DNA of 64,000 bases from an archaeon CG10_big_fil_rev_8_21_14_0_10_43_11 (GCA_002763265.1 PEZQ01000006.1:1-64000); one strand, 5' to 3'. Counted from the stretch's first letter, positions 1 through 59,304 are shown. Program-made: numbers and translations. The notes: a model not told the origin generated them from the sequence alone.

Positions 1-33
1 CATCGTTGCACTAAATTTTAGCCCTACGGGGAA

Positions 34-153
34 TATAACAGCGATTAAAGAGTTCCGAAGTCTTGCAGACTTCTTCACCCAAATTTTTTCTTCAGCTCTG
101 TTCCGCCTTCGGCTCCACGAGGAAGAAAAAACTTTCCTTAATCGCGATGTTAG
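34..153 (+). other. attC-like recombination site 1
   Basis: Outer arms pair as TAACA (36-40) with TGTTA (148-152), and GCGATTAA (41-48) with TTAATCGC (138-145). Two extra bases sit on the right arm, resembling the extrahelical bases of attC sites. An inner hairpin lies at 57-73 (GAAGTCT/AGACTTC). The right end, GTTAGTT, is close to the integron core consensus GTTRRRY but not a perfect match. Confidence 0.5.
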
Positions 154-248
154 TTTCAATTTTTGAGAATGCCTAAGATGTAGAGTTCAAACAAAGAAAT
201 AGGAAATAATATTTTTTCTCCCACCCAATAGGAGAGACGCGCGCAGTT
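149..248 (+). repeat. 100-bp block repeated after attC-like sites 1 and 3, copy 1
   Basis: This block starts at the GTTAG of site 1 and is nearly identical to 2647-2748, which starts at the GTTAG of site 3. Shared words include GAATGCCT, CAAAGAAATAGGAAATAATA and AGGAGAGACGCGCGCAGTT. It holds no open reading frame. It could be a common cassette leader or promoter, or part of the mobile unit itself. Confidence 0.8.
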
Positions 249-412
249 TTCTAATTCTCGAAAACTAGATAGCAAAAACTTCGTTTTTGGATTTATAGAG
301 GGATTTCCTTAGTCCTTCGGACAGATAGTTTTGCTTCACAATATTGTTCGGAGTTTTGAAATAAATAAACTTATAAATGATGAAAAACTTTTTGTTTAAG
401 AAAAGAGGAAAA

Positions 413-682
413 ATGGAAAACGGAATTAATCTAAGAAAAAAGTTAATTAGCCATAAGAAGTTAGCCCAAGAAAGAACAATTCTTGCCAATGAGCGGAATA
501 CGCTTGCTTATATAAGAACGGGATTTTCAGCATTTGTTTTAGGAATTGCTGCTATTAAATTATTTGAAAACGATGGCTTTTTTCTATATGCAGGATGGAT
601 TGCCGTTTTAATAGGGGTATTGTTTGTTACTCTTGGCATTGTTTATTATCCGATAAGAAAAAGAAAAATTAAATCATACTAA
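413..682 (+). CDS. DUF202 family small membrane protein
   Basis: Small integral membrane protein of 89 residues from the ATG at 413, which follows a GAGGAA ribosome-binding sequence. An in-frame ATG at 377 would add 12 residues and lacks such a site. The N-terminal half has the DUF202 signature, with E-R-N-x-L-A-Y-I-R-T leading into the first membrane segment. A second hydrophobic segment and a basic KRKK tail follow. DUF202 proteins are found in bacteria and archaea and their role is unknown. It lies between attC-like sites 1 and 2 and reads toward site 2, as a cassette gene should. Family call fairly sure; function unknown. Confidence 0.75.
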   Translation: MENGINLRKKLISHKKLAQERTILANERNTLAYIRTGFSAFVLGIAAIKLFENDGFFLYAGWIAVLIGVLFVTLGIVYYPIRKRKIKSY

Positions 683-747
683 TGTGCCCTCCTGACTCAC
701 TCCGCTTCGCGCCGTGCCACGTTGCACTCTCCTCCTTTCAGTCGTCG

Positions 748-852
748 GGGCGTATAACAAGGGATATACAGTTCAGCCCTCGGCTCGGGCTTCACCCAAA
801 TTTTTCTTCCACTTCATTCCAGAAAAACTTCTCTAAATCCTGACGTTAGGCG
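748..852 (+). other. attC-like recombination site 2
   Basis: Left arm GCGTATAACAAGGGAT (750-765) pairs imperfectly with right arm ATCCTGACGTTAGGCG (837-852). The right end GTTAGGC (846-851 plus flank) fits the integron core consensus GTTRRRY exactly. The inner part holds a GCCC/GGGC hairpin (777-790) and the TTCACCCAAATTTTT motif shared with site 1. Confidence 0.55.
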
Positions 853-941
853 TAATTCAGAATTAGGCAGTCCGCCGACCACCCGCCCCTCTAAGATAAG
901 CATAAACGTAATAATATAATTCCAATATCTTTATTGATAAT

Positions 942-1853
942 ATGAAACTAAAACACTTAATAGAATCCCAGCAATTAGATGTTGAAACTATTTTCACTAT
1001 TTTCAGAAAAGCAGATGAATTAAGAAACTCAATTGTAAAACCTCTTGATGGAAAAATTTTAGCCACTCTTTTTTATGAGCCAAGCACCAGAACACGACTT
1101 AGTTTTGAATCAGCAATGTTGAGATTGGGTGGGAATATTATTGGCACTGAGAATGCAAAAGAATTTTCATCCGCTATGAAAGGAGAATCATTACAGGACA
1201 CTATAAGAATTGTTTCATCATACGCGGATATTATTGTGTTAAGACATTCTGAAGAAGGAGCATCTAAAATTTCTACTTCGGTTAGTTCTATTCCTATAAT
1301 CAATGGCGGAGATGGGTCTGGACAACACCCAACACAGGCTCTTTTAGATTTGTATACCATTTGGAAAGAAATCGGTAACATAGATAATATCACTATCGCC
1401 ATGGTCGGAGATTTAAAATATGGGAGAACTGTTAGGTCACTTTGTTATCTACTTGGAAAATTCAAAAATGTAAAAATTATCTTTATAGCTCATAGATATT
1501 TCTCGATCAAAGATGATATAAAAGAATATTTGAGAAGACATGACACTAAGTTTGAAGAACAAACTGACCTAAATCAGCATTTACCGCAGGTGGATGTCGT
1601 ATACATGACACGAATTCAAAAAGAACGTATGTCTGATGAAGAGTATAAAAATGCAAAAATGGCTTATAAAATTACAAAAGAAAATTTGAATTTACTAAAG
1701 GATAGTGCTAGATTATTACATCCACTACCGCATGTTGAGGAAATAGATTTACCTGTAGAAATTGAACAAACTGACAAGAGAGTGGCATATTTTAGACAGG
1801 CTAAAAACGGACTTTATATAAGAATGGCTTTACTTTCATATTTGTTAGAGTAA
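942..1853 (+). CDS. pyrB: Aspartate carbamoyltransferase catalytic subunit
   Basis: Joins carbamoyl phosphate and aspartate to give N-carbamoylaspartate, the committed step of pyrimidine synthesis, in the cytoplasm. At 303 residues it has the usual family length. The carbamoyl-phosphate loop EPSTRTRLSFE is at 46-56, HPTQALLD at 129-136 and the aspartate-domain motif MVGDLKYGRTVRSL near 149-162. HPLPHVEEI near the C-terminus supplies the conserved proline loop. No pyrI or other pyrimidine gene adjoins it. It lies between attC-like sites 2 and 3, in DNA more AT-rich than the core genes. Partial inverted arms (856-892 and 1872-1899, sharing GTGGT and AATTCTGAA) flank it. Enzyme call is sure; being cassette cargo is inference. 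Confidence 0.93.
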   Translation: MKLKHLIESQQLDVETIFTIFRKADELRNSIVKPLDGKILATLFYEPSTRTRLSFESAMLRLGGNIIGTENAKEFSSAMKGESLQDTIRIVSSYADIIVLRHSEEGASKISTSVSSIPIINGGDGSGQHPTQALLDLYTIWKEIGNIDNITIAMVGDLKYGRTVRSLCYLLGKFKNVKIIFIAHRYFSIKDDIKEYLRRHDTKFEEQTDLNQHLPQVDVVYMTRIQKERMSDEEYKNAKMAYKITKENLNLLKDSARLLHPLPHVEEIDLPVEIEQTDKRVAYFRQAKNGLYIRMALLSYLLE

Positions 1854-1965
1854 GACTATTGATAACTTTGTGGTGTTCCGCCACCGCCGAATTCTGAACT
1901 TAAAATTACTTCGTAATTTTGCCACGCCCTGCGGGCTTTTAGAAAATTGATAAGCTCCAGAAAAC
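1854..1965. repeat. Hairpin-rich spacer between pyrB and the toxin gene
   Basis: Convergent spacer with three perfect small stem-loops: GTGG/CCAC near 1871-1885, AAAATTAC/GTAATTTT at 1903-1921, and GCCC/GGGC near 1927-1937 followed by TTTT. The last could end transcription of pyrB. The first part (1872-1899) is the inverted partner of 856-892 upstream of pyrB. Confidence 0.45.
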
Positions 1966-2214
1966 CTATTTGTACACATTCTTCCTATGTCCGATTTTTA
2001 TAATCAAAATTTCAAGCCTTTCTTGATTTATATCGGCCAGAATCCTATAATCTCCAATCCTCATTTTATATCCTTTAGTGGCAACCAAGCGAATAAAATG
2101 TGATTGGGGCCTAATTCTTGATCTTTCTAAGCCCCCCATAATTCTCTTCTGAATCTCTACAGGTAATTTATTTAGAAATTTTAGAGCTTTAGGTGAAAAA
2201 ATAATTTCGTACAT
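1966..2214 (-). CDS. RelE/ParE-superfamily toxin
   Basis: Probable mRNA-interferase-type toxin of 82 residues, the usual RelE length. The N-terminal FSPKALKFLNKLP helix and the C-terminal YKMRIGDYRILADI strand, followed by IKIGHRKNVY, are typical of RelE toxins; the late H-R-x-x-x-Y carries residues used in RNA cleavage in the family. Its ATG overlaps the stop of the upstream antitoxin (TAATG), so the two are translationally coupled. Toxin-antitoxin pairs are a common cargo that stabilises integron arrays. Target and activity are not shown by the sequence. Confidence 0.85.
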   Translation of the reverse strand: MYEIIFSPKALKFLNKLPVEIQKRIMGGLERSRIRPQSHFIRLVATKGYKMRIGDYRILADINQERLEILIIKIGHRKNVYK

Positions 2215-2432
2215 TATAGATTCAGCTTCCTTTTGACTTCTTCAAGTGGAATTCCTTTCCCTGCAGCAATCTCTTTTCTGGCTTCTTCAATGTCCTTCTT
2301 TGTTTGTTCACTAAGTTCCATTGTGTCTTCTAAAGCATCCCAGATAATTTCTTCATAAGTATCCCTATCCGAAATCTTTCTCTTAGATAGTTCTTGTTGA
2401 AGATTTGAACTAATTTGTATTGTGGTTGTCAT
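2214..2432 (-). CDS. Antitoxin partner of the RelE-type toxin
   Basis: 72-residue protein directly upstream of the toxin and overlapping it by one base. The N-terminal 25 residues (TTIQISSNLQQEL) look like a short ribbon-helix-helix DNA-binding start. The rest is a charged helical tail that would wrap the toxin, ending in PLEEVKRKLNL. Such antitoxins usually repress their own promoter. The TATA-like box sits only about 25 bp before the ATG, so binding near the start could block transcription. Assignment rests on context and general features, not on a precise family match. Confidence 0.7.
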   Translation of the reverse strand: MTTTIQISSNLQQELSKRKISDRDTYEEIIWDALEDTMELSEQTKKDIEEARKEIAAGKGIPLEEVKRKLNL

Positions 2433-2454
2433 ATAGTCTGCTATAACATAATAT

Positions 2455-2467
2455 AGTATTTAAATCT
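2455..2467 (-). promoter_or_regulatory. TATA box of the toxin-antitoxin pair
   Basis: On the minus strand AGATTTAAATACT lies about 23-35 bp before the antitoxin ATG (2432). This is archaeal TATA-box spacing for a leaderless transcript. Confidence 0.55.
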
Positions 2468-2566
2468 TTTTATTTTCTGGGGCTCGCTTCCTAGTATAGA
2501 AGACTCTTCGAATTTGATAAAAAAGTTTTTTGAACTATCCCTTCAGTCGTTCGCCTTACAGGCTCA

Positions 2567-2652
2567 CCACATAATAGCGATTAAGAGGAAAATTCCTGCG
2601 AAAATTCCCCAAATCCGCCTACGGCGAACTTCTCTTAATCGCATACGTTAGT
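2567..2652 (+). other. attC-like recombination site 3
   Basis: Shortest and cleanest of the three sites. GCGATTAAGAG (2577-2587) pairs perfectly with CTCTTAATCGC (2632-2642). The outer TAAT (2572-2575) pairs with GTTA (2647-2650) in three of four positions, again with extra unpaired bases on the right arm. An inner CCGCC/GGCG pair lies at 2615-2626. It ends in GTTAGTT like site 1 and leads into copy 2 of the 100-bp block. Confidence 0.5.
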
Positions 2653-2748
2653 TTCAATTTTTGAGAATGCCTGTAAGTTAGAGTTAAAACAAAGAAATAG
2701 GAAATAATATTTTTTTTAACCCACCTAATAGGAGAGACGCGCGCAGTT
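2647..2748 (+). repeat. 100-bp block repeated after attC-like sites 1 and 3, copy 2
   Basis: Near-identical partner of 149-248, differing at a dozen or so positions and by a two-base length change. It occupies the same position relative to an attC-like site. The rest of 2433-2804 holds no gene. Confidence 0.8.
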
Positions 2749-2804
2749 GCTACGCAACATTTTGTCTTGACTTCGTCAAGAAGAATTATATTTTGCAAAT
2801 ATCT

Positions 2805-3551
2805 TTATCTAGACTGATTTGCATATGTCCAATCGGCTTCCTGTCTTAGAGGTTCAATTTTTCCATGAACTGATTCAGGCAACAATTCATAAAGCCTATT
2901 TTTACCTTGTTCAATCTCTGAATCTTCAGTTCTTCCCGCAAATCTTAAAGCCACGATTCCTTTTAGAACCCTGTTTAAAAATTCGGGATTTGCCGATTTT
3001 ACATAATCTTCTCCAAAAGAAGTAAAATCATTTCTCATTAAAGCATAAGCGACTAAGAAATCACTTTTTACTTTAGTAGAATCAAACAAGCCATCTTCAG
3101 TCATAATTTCTCCTTGTAATTCTGCAAAACTTTCTTTTCCATCCCATAATCCATTTTCATCCCTCAACCCAGGCCAATATAATGGTCTTGCAATTGTTAT
3201 GTCTGTTAAAAGTAACGGCTCCCTAATGTTTGGGGTGTGATTTGAATTAACTGCTAAATAATTTAATCCATCAAATTGATTCAGGTGAGCCCTGATAACT
3301 TCATCTCTTTGTTTTCTATCTAAGAGAGGATAAACTGAACCAATTGCATTATATAAATCAGAATCAGGAATAAAATCATCCCCAATCCCCTGAATTCGTT
3401 TATATTCTTTATCTCTTACTAAATTAACCAAAAGTTGATGATTGAAAAGACCGTCATTCTTAGTTCTTTCATCTAATCTTTCGAGTAGTCCTAGACTTCC
3501 TAAAGTTTCTAGAGTATGTGCAGTTTGAACCATGATTTTGTAATCTAACAA
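2805..3551 (-). CDS. Hypothetical protein, last cassette cargo
   Basis: 248 residues, soluble, acidic, with no membrane segment or motif I recognise. The N-terminal 40 residues (AHTLETLGSLGLLERLDERTKNDG) look helical. The middle holds a proline/tryptophan patch (ARPLYWPGLRDENGLWDG) and the C-terminus is helical and charged. The start could also be the second ATG, six codons in. It lies alone on the minus strand between attC-like site 3 and the tail of a broken gene. Codon use is AT-rich like the rest of the stretch. I do not recognise it and give no function. Confidence 0.7.
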   Translation of the reverse strand: MLDYKIMVQTAHTLETLGSLGLLERLDERTKNDGLFNHQLLVNLVRDKEYKRIQGIGDDFIPDSDLYNAIGSVYPLLDRKQRDEVIRAHLNQFDGLNYLAVNSNHTPNIREPLLLTDITIARPLYWPGLRDENGLWDGKESFAELQGEIMTEDGLFDSTKVKSDFLVAYALMRNDFTSFGEDYVKSANPEFLNRVLKGIVALRFAGRTEDSEIEQGKNRLYELLPESVHGKIEPLRQEADWTYANQSR

Positions 3552-3681
3552 TTACTTAAACAGATTTGTATTCTTAAGTATAATTTTCTTTTTCAGGAAA
3601 AAAAAGAAAGCAAAACAAGACAGTATTGCTGCTATACTTGAAAATGATTCTGCAAGCAGACCGCTTGAAGAGCTTGTCTAA
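3544..3681 (+). pseudogene. C-terminal tail of a gene broken at the accessory boundary
   Basis: After an in-frame TAA at 3541-3543, the plus strand stays open for 45 codons to TAA at 3679-3681. The product reads as a hydrophobic stretch (FLSIIFFF), a lysine cluster and a soluble tail ending ASRPLEELV. There is no start codon with a promoter, and it ends 2 bp from the convergent PCNA stop. It looks like the preserved 3' end of a host gene whose front was replaced by the accessory DNA. It may also be a chance frame. Confidence 0.4.
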
Positions 3682-3683
3682 GG

Positions 3684-4433
3684 TTAATCAGTTTCTACGC
3701 GCGGCGCAAGAATAAAGCTGACTTTAAGCTGGTTCACTGATGTGTAGTCAAGGCGAAGCGGATAGTCTTTTTTAAAGTTGAGTGTTAAGTTTTCTGCAAG
3801 CTTTGACGCTTTAATCATTTTGTTGAGGTACTCAATTGAATATTTTGCAGAACTCTCTTCTTTCACGTCCAAATTGACCAGCGCATCACTTGTTGTTGGG
3901 TCAAGTTCAATAGTAACATCGCTGTTGTCCCCCCGACCGCTCATCACAAACTTTTCGGGAAACGCGTGAAGAATAATACTGTCACTAAGCACACCTGCAT
4001 CTTCAACACCATTTTTGAGCACGTCTGATTTGAGTTCAACAACTGCATTGAATTCAAGAGCAGGTACGCGCAAATCTTGTGGGTCAAGGTCAAGAAGGGG
4101 CAGTGAAAATTTTCGGTGATACGTATCTTGGATTTCTACAAGCAGGTTTGCATCAACTAAGCTAATAATAATGCGTTCAGTTCCGGTAACGCGCCTGAGC
4201 ACGTCTTTGAGCTTGTCAATGCTTAGACCAATTTTTTTGCTCTCATCAACTGTATACGTTGAAAAAGCACTGGGCAAAAGGTGGAATACAATCATAGCAA
4301 CGCTTGCAGGATCCATAGCAACGAGTTTGATACCGTCTGTTGAGATTTCAAAAATGCCTTCACCAACGAGCTCATTAATGAGATTAATACTATCTTTAAA
4401 CAGTTTAGAATTATCAATGACTGCTTTAAACAT
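3684..4433 (-). CDS. pcn: DNA polymerase sliding clamp (PCNA)
   Basis: Ring-forming processivity clamp for DNA polymerase, ligase and flap endonuclease. 249 residues is the standard length. The two-fold clamp fold is visible from the MFKAVIDNSKLFKDSINLINEL start, DGIKLVAMDPASVAMI near 33-48 (loop under the ring) and the C-terminal LKVSFILAPRVE, the strand next to the PIP-box pocket. It is the last gene of a minus-strand run from rpoL, but an 81-bp gap with a TATA-like sequence on the minus strand and an inverted repeat (4475-4497) suggests it can also be transcribed alone. The clamp loader lies at 21466-23591. Confidence 0.96.
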   Translation of the reverse strand: MFKAVIDNSKLFKDSINLINELVGEGIFEISTDGIKLVAMDPASVAMIVFHLLPSAFSTYTVDESKKIGLSIDKLKDVLRRVTGTERIIISLVDANLLVEIQDTYHRKFSLPLLDLDPQDLRVPALEFNAVVELKSDVLKNGVEDAGVLSDSIILHAFPEKFVMSGRGDNSDVTIELDPTTSDALVNLDVKEESSAKYSIEYLNKMIKASKLAENLTLNFKKDYPLRLDYTSVNQLKVSFILAPRVETD

Positions 4434-44523: not shown

Positions 44524-44630
44524 GGGCCCATGGCGCAGCCTGGAAGCGCGTTGGTCTTATATGACATCCTTTGGGACAACAGAGTGTTTAGGAAAACCAA
44601 AGGTCGTGAGTTCAAATCTCACTGGGCCCA
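44524..44630 (+). tRNA. tRNA-Ile (UAU) with intron
   Basis: Acceptor GGGCCCA/TGGGCCC, D arm GCGC/GCGC, anticodon stem TTGGT/ACCAA, T arm GTGAG-TTCAAAT-CTCAC, discriminator A. The anticodon loop reads CTTATA, giving TAT at 44558-44560. A 33-nt intron (44562-44594) lies after position 37, with TCCT/AGGA as a candidate central helix of the bulge-helix-bulge motif. UAU tRNA-Ile instead of the agmatidine type is known from Nanoarchaeum and some other archaea. Intron ends are approximate. Confidence 0.8.
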
Positions 44631-57635: not shown

Positions 57636-59129
<1,494 letters not shown>

Positions 59130-59304
59130 AAAATTTTTCTCACAGAAAATGTTTTGAGGTCGCCATAAAAAGCATATTACGCAAGAACACTGTCAGTAAA
59201 AAGTCAAATACTTCTTTTTCCTACTCAAACCCATTCTTTTTTTTTAGAATCTGTTTAACTCTAGACTTGTCTGAAATATTCTTAAAAAAAAAGTTAGCTG
59301 AGAC

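Follow-up and report, generated by a model that had tools for sequence, protein, structure and literature searches.

The first 3,590 nucleotides of the stretch analysed here (the window, 64,000 nucleotides, bases 1-64000 of the 162.6-kb contig C6) raise the question of whether an archaeal chromosome carries an integron-type array of gene cassettes and, if so, to which recombination system that array belongs. The source assembly comprises 1.006 Mb in 11 contigs with an estimated completeness of 99.6%, and the class in which this genome falls includes a MAG named Woesearchaeota. That gene cassettes occur in archaea is already known from Ghaly et al. 2022 (PMC9668308), whose attC and IntI detection tools, developed on bacterial integrons, picked out integrons in 75 of 6718 archaeal genomes, with 539 archaeal attCs, six IntIs and most arrays lacking IntI; about 7% of the integron-bearing MAGs had an archaeal marker on the same contig. 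Sequence comparisons make it very probable, in our judgement, that window 1-3590 is the right-hand part of a non-IntI integron-type cassette array of a kind used by Nanoarchaeota and CPR bacteria. As window position 1 is the first base of contig C6, the array is cut at its left edge. The window contains the following features:

31-160, + strand: attC-like site S1 (R'' TAAC at 36-39, R' GTTA at 149-152, downstream CAAT to 160)
748-856, + strand: attC-like site S2 (TAAC at 754-757, GTTA at 845-848, TAAT to 856; its own fold is weak)
2565-2658, + strand: attC-like site S3 (R'' decayed to TAAT at 2572-2575, GTTA at 2647-2650, CAAT to 2658)
150-845, + strand: cassette A, between the S1 and S2 cores
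377-682, + strand: gene for a DUF202 small membrane protein, in cassette A (PF02656, 45.4 bits)
846-2647, + strand: cassette or cassettes B, between the S2 and S3 cores
942-1853, + strand: pyrB, aspartate carbamoyltransferase (TIGR00670, 330 bits)
1966-2214, - strand: ParE/RelE-type toxin gene (PF05016, 34.7 bits)
2214-2432, - strand: putative antitoxin gene, 72 aa, upstream of parE, proposed from position and size
2648-3590, + strand: terminal cassette C, whose right end shows no recognisable site
2805-3551, - strand: gene for a 248-aa protein in cassette C, no family matched
3590-3680, + strand: putative array/core-genome junction, with a C-terminal open frame (ending in GKKKKAKQDSIAAILENDSASRPLEELV and a stop) convergent with PCNA

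S1, S2 and S3 can be aligned as one family with common arms (GCGATTAA / AACTTCTCTTAATCGCGAnGTTA) and a common internal motif, CCCAAAT, and there is a 2-nt bulge in the 3' arm, between the R box and the stem. The first-pass annotation had described three imperfect inverted-repeat sites between unrelated genes, with a shared internal motif and extra bases on one arm, and the alignment bears this description out; its small genes, said to include a toxin-antitoxin pair and pyrB, were likewise recovered as PyrB, a ParE-type toxin and a small antitoxin-like gene upstream of the toxin, the product of the last matching no Pfam family above cut-off. When folded as DNA, S1 and S3 gave z-scores of -3.3 to -4.5, with none of 200 shuffled sequences as good, and the fold of S2 did not stand out from its shuffles (z about -0.8). 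With spacings of 719 and 1817 bp, the sites fit the definition of a CALIN (at least two attC sites less than 4 kb apart, without an integrase), but they do so as a new site class and not as canonical attC. The 96-nt leaders that follow S1 and S3, in cassettes A and C, are 80% identical and begin exactly at the core GTTA (149 and 2647).

A covariance model (R2; 29 pairs) was built from the five clearest sites of the source genome, S1-S3 included. At E <= 0.01 it matches at least 125 of 371 Nanoarchaeota genomes, which is a lower bound with only about seven candidates scored per genome, and it also matches 17 of 192 Patescibacteria genomes and only 2 of 148 Desulfobacterota genomes. The matched sites of many genomes form tandem, same-strand arrays with sites 0.3-6 kb apart, so that tandem sites in one orientation part unrelated genes as in a functional integron; some copies are single. 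The regions fetched hold 93-96 sites, about 90 of them beyond the source genome's own. Across 96 sites, compensatory change was found in 24 of the 29 pairs (460 cells vs 125 shuffled). The covariation score was 0.392, and slid structures reached 0.128 at most. The alignment was fitted to the model and hence favours the structure, but it also underlies the slid and shuffled controls. Three sites from other genomes fold with z-scores of -4.2 to -7.2. Site length ranges from 76 to 179 nt (median 98), and in the bottom-strand fold the outer stem has at least 12 pairs in 86 of 96 sites, with two inner hairpins in 64 and three in 24. At the right end of the sites stands GTTAnnnnCAAT, partly outside R2, with its AAT conserved at 94-97%. 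Both Desulfobacterota loci have a single site (L189 in G704 and L190 in G703, the former genome also giving a partial IntI match), and these could possibly reflect transfer of cassettes from CPR/DPANN.

The strongest evidence for mechanism is a complementarity that circularising integron cassettes predict. As reverse complement, the cassette leader matches the bases before TAAC of its own site at 3.70 of five positions, perfectly in 31 of 63 cases (shuffled mean 2.16 +/- 0.14, with 0 of 2000 shuffles as good), whereas the match between leader and neighbouring R' in the integrated array is only 2.03 of five. The attI tail is similarly complementary to the R'' of the first cassette (3.94 of five; shuffled 2.10 +/- 0.26, 0 of 5000 shuffles), 10 of 18 pairs being perfect over nine bases, as is locus L089 after its R'' register was corrected by eye. 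The leader/R'' complementarity suggests that cleavage at G^TTA would occur at either end of the unit and that its joined ends would make one site. A cassette would then be the segment TTAnnnnCAAT...gene(s)...attC...G, in which the attC, as single-stranded DNA, would fold into an outer stem (R box TAACA/TGTTA, a 2-nt one-sided bulge and about 11 bp) that is capped by inner hairpins surrounding CCCAAAT. In the excised circle, the 5' end of the cassette would pair with its own R'' box and restore the full site; a tyrosine recombinase of the Xer family, whose gene lies divergently next to attI, would exchange strands at G^TTA; and insertion of circles next to attI would yield an array with a single orientation. 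We infer single-strand folding in the cell, the G^TTA crossover and the role of the array recombinase as the enzyme from these patterns.

It is this complementarity that speaks for a circle restoring its own site, as in a functional integron, and neither of the two window cassettes displays it. In cassette A the leader and the R'' match at one of five positions, a mismatch that points to rearrangement or loss of a site, and in cassette B at two of five. B is probably a pair of cassettes whose separating site, between pyrB and the toxin-antitoxin genes, was lost or has decayed. Separately, positions 856-871 of the cassette B leader are complementary to 1883-1898, just 3' of pyrB, hinting at a decayed site that may once have terminated a pyrB cassette. 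At the loci of five pyrB relatives (L025-L028, L031) a search with the site model at E up to 1 found no site, so that elsewhere pyrB is at most a candidate cassette gene.

In about 15 of 26 genomes checked, the better assemblies among them, the head of the array has a divergently transcribed tyrosine recombinase. One example is G320, a genome in one contig of 711 kb, with the recombinase at C1 324587-325060 (+) and the array (-) at 313.5-323.6 kb; further array-head recombinases lie on G009:C43, G219:C1, G045:C13, G050:C24, G038:C3 and G126:C4, and the CPR loci have the same layout as those of Nanoarchaeota. The array-head recombinases are preceded by a conserved attI-like core, GTTAnnnnCAAT (for example CGCTTAATAGTTGTTAGTTGCAAT), often after a short inverted repeat. 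The XerA-like genes of these genomes do not have this core upstream; a single match, at 309 nt, is probably due to chance. A divergent integrase with attI between it and the cassettes, the platform of a functional integron, is accordingly present in relatives, and the source genome has only a broken fragment of the recombinase.

XerA is the archaeal dimer-resolution recombinase. It belongs to the same superfamily as the array recombinases, for which NCBIfam XerA_Arch (NF040815) is the best or second-best model: it ranks first for the Nanoarchaeota array recombinases tested, and for two CPR array recombinases the integron-integrase model scores slightly above it, yet below cut-off. In a first tree, however, 21 array/attI recombinases and the fragment from contig C11 of the source genome form one clade (97/97) apart from XerA, and XerA genes neither carry the attI core nor lie at arrays. 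We therefore rejected the identification of the array recombinase as the XerA dimer-resolution enzyme, given its separate clade and its adjacency to attI core and array. In a second tree, the array recombinases from CPR fall together with those from archaea (92/74). A separate clade of nine recombinases, distinct from both the main array clade and XerA, includes some members with an attI-like core; it may be a second integrase lineage, in which case more than one enzyme lineage would be involved. Loci of this second clade include the following:

L114, L092, L138, L146, L149: second-clade recombinases, attI-like cores upstream of several

The overall layout is also that of a classical integron or CALIN, in which ordinary attC sites would be moved by an IntI missing from the assembly or acting in trans. 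Archaeal CALINs, including some from Nanoarchaeota, have been published (PMC9668308), and the arrays end at contig edges, where intI could be lost. Yet IntI, as TIGR02249 above cut-off, was found in 0 of 371 Nanoarchaeota genomes, compared with 86 of 247 Desulfobacterota genomes in a positive control using the same kind of search, and in the source genome the model gives a single, weak match, to the truncated Xer-like fragment at the beginning of C11. The array recombinases match TIGR02249 in two separate stretches, never over cut-off, and those adjacent to attI do not have the IntI-specific insert near patch III that marks canonical integrons: their GKGxKDR and HxLRHSFAT motifs stand 57-68 aa apart, compared with 107 in IntI1 and in two chromosomal IntIs. 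In the second tree all array recombinases and XerA are set apart from 13 IntIs at 100/100. The site models are equally blind to each other, as the class 1-trained covariance model, the one canonical attC model used, gave no significant match among about 100 own and related sites, nor near the window even unfiltered, and R2 matches no class 1 attC site. Of the three outcomes that the first-pass annotation had named as refuting, two, the lack of an attC covariance match and the lack of an integron integrase, were therefore obtained for the classical integron, and we give the classical reading little credence. The claim of an integron-type cassette array in an archaeal chromosome holds for the architecture, that is, for tandem sites and cassettes together with the attI and divergent integrase of relatives; it fails or is unproven as regards membership of the IntI family, the sites and recombinase being of another lineage.

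The sites could instead be a palindromic repeat scattered between genes (MITE, REP or terminator-like) without any role in recombination, and they are indeed palindromic, intergenic and often AT-rich, with some copies single. Such a repeat is hardly to be reconciled with same-strand tandem arrays that start at a recombinase with an attI core, or with homologous leaders that begin exactly at the core, and it is strongly disfavoured by a leader/R'' complementarity that spans whole cassettes. Mis-assembly of CPR-bacterial or mobile-element array DNA onto an archaeal contig would account for the lower GC of the array (0.33-0.38, against mostly 0.40-0.46 elsewhere) and its contig-edge position, the same system is carried by CPR bacteria, and a local chimera at about 3590 is conceivable. 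C6, however, bears an archaeal SSU rRNA gene (57637-59130) and a PCNA gene (3684-4433, - strand) that directly adjoins the array and is 62% identical to the PCNA of G001, the only same-family genome; contig C4 bears a second, independent array/core junction; and one sampled Nanoarchaeota genome in three has the system, the 711-kb single-contig genome among them. The nearest relatives of pyrB, found in Woesearchaeota, Nanoarchaeota, Pacearchaeota and CPR, are mainly from Nanoarchaeota. Mis-assembly is accordingly very unlikely, and a passive repeat scarcely credible. The non-IntI cassette array thus remains the reading to be preferred. The third refuting outcome named in the first-pass annotation, the same three spacers kept in place across relatives, was not observed: in G001, the one same-family relative, the genes downstream of PCNA are different, so that no clean empty site was recovered there.

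Beyond the window, the source genome contains these further features:

C4, 75-264 and 412-564, opposite orientation: two attC-like sites at the start of the contig
C4, 19454-19589: attC-like site
C10 end, locus L024, 6289-7790: half-site, second DUF202 gene and antitoxin/toxin-like pair

C4 and C6 may each hold one end of a single array that was split in assembly, and the features at the end of C10, likewise at a contig edge, are a further remnant of the cassette system. A PF00589 search of the source genome returned one gene only (C11:104-523), which lies at a contig edge, lacks its N-terminal half and has 17 extra residues, with 80 aa between the GKGxKDR and HxLRHSFAT motifs; in the tree its sister is the G009 array recombinase. 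The genome, with its estimated completeness of 99.6%, yielded no intact tyrosine recombinase, XerA included. Because its only array-clade recombinase is broken, the genome's own array is best read as a relic, decaying or orphaned. Signs of decay are the failure of both window cassettes in the leader/R'' comparison, the loss of the C from the TAAC of S3, and the absence of an end site from cassette C. Taken with the sites on C4 and C6 and the half-site on C10, the broken recombinase gives the platform a degenerate look, and the array has probably stalled or is acted on by an enzyme supplied in trans. Within the recombinase fragment, at C11 ~222-275 (locus L001), there is an in-frame palindromic insert of ~51 nt, SPKKSKIFWAQKNKFFS, which is absent from the closest relative and resembles a palindromic element inserted inside a coding region.

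Compared with bacterial integrons (IntI + attI + attC, for example class 1), the system shares a divergent tyrosine recombinase, an attI-like core and same-orientation arrays, as well as sites folded as single strands with one-sided bulges, a GTT core, and cassettes whose 5' end is complementary to the R'' of their own site. It differs in that its Xer-like recombinase does not have the IntI insert and falls outside the IntI clade, in that its sites have a long near-perfect stem, mostly two inner hairpins and the extended GTTAnnnnCAAT core, and in the lack of cross-recognition between covariance models. The archaeal integrons of Ghaly et al. 2022 are similar as arrays in archaeal MAGs, including Nanoarchaeota, that mostly lack IntI and contain toxin-antitoxin cassettes; their IntIs, however, carry the IntI domain, whereas the recombinase described here is non-IntI and the system occurs in about one-third of sampled Nanoarchaeota genomes. 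Some of the Nanoarchaeota attCs of that study may belong to the new site class. The study was the only relevant work on DPANN/Woesearchaeota/Nanoarchaeota integrons in the PMC literature searched; the new site class, attI core and non-IntI recombinase common to Nanoarchaeota and CPR were not found there, and priority is uncertain.

On a broader proposal we are evenly divided: that this is a second, independently evolved integron type, combining a Xer-derived integrase with a different class of folded-DNA site, which would have arisen in DPANN, been shared with CPR and become the main cassette-exchange platform of both ultra-small, host-dependent radiations. Current integron searches rest on IntI and bacterial attC, by which about 1% of archaeal genomes are positive. 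With a system made of other parts, cassette capture would be common in ultra-small archaea and CPR bacteria, a mechanism for cross-domain gene flux between them would be at hand, and it could be asked whether single-strand cassette recombination arose more than once; the attI motif, the site model and the recombinase clade are concrete handles for such work.

Elsewhere in the window, positions 44524-44630 give a 107-nt Rfam tRNA match (58.4 bits) that was missed by ARAGORN and is probably an intron-containing tRNA gene.
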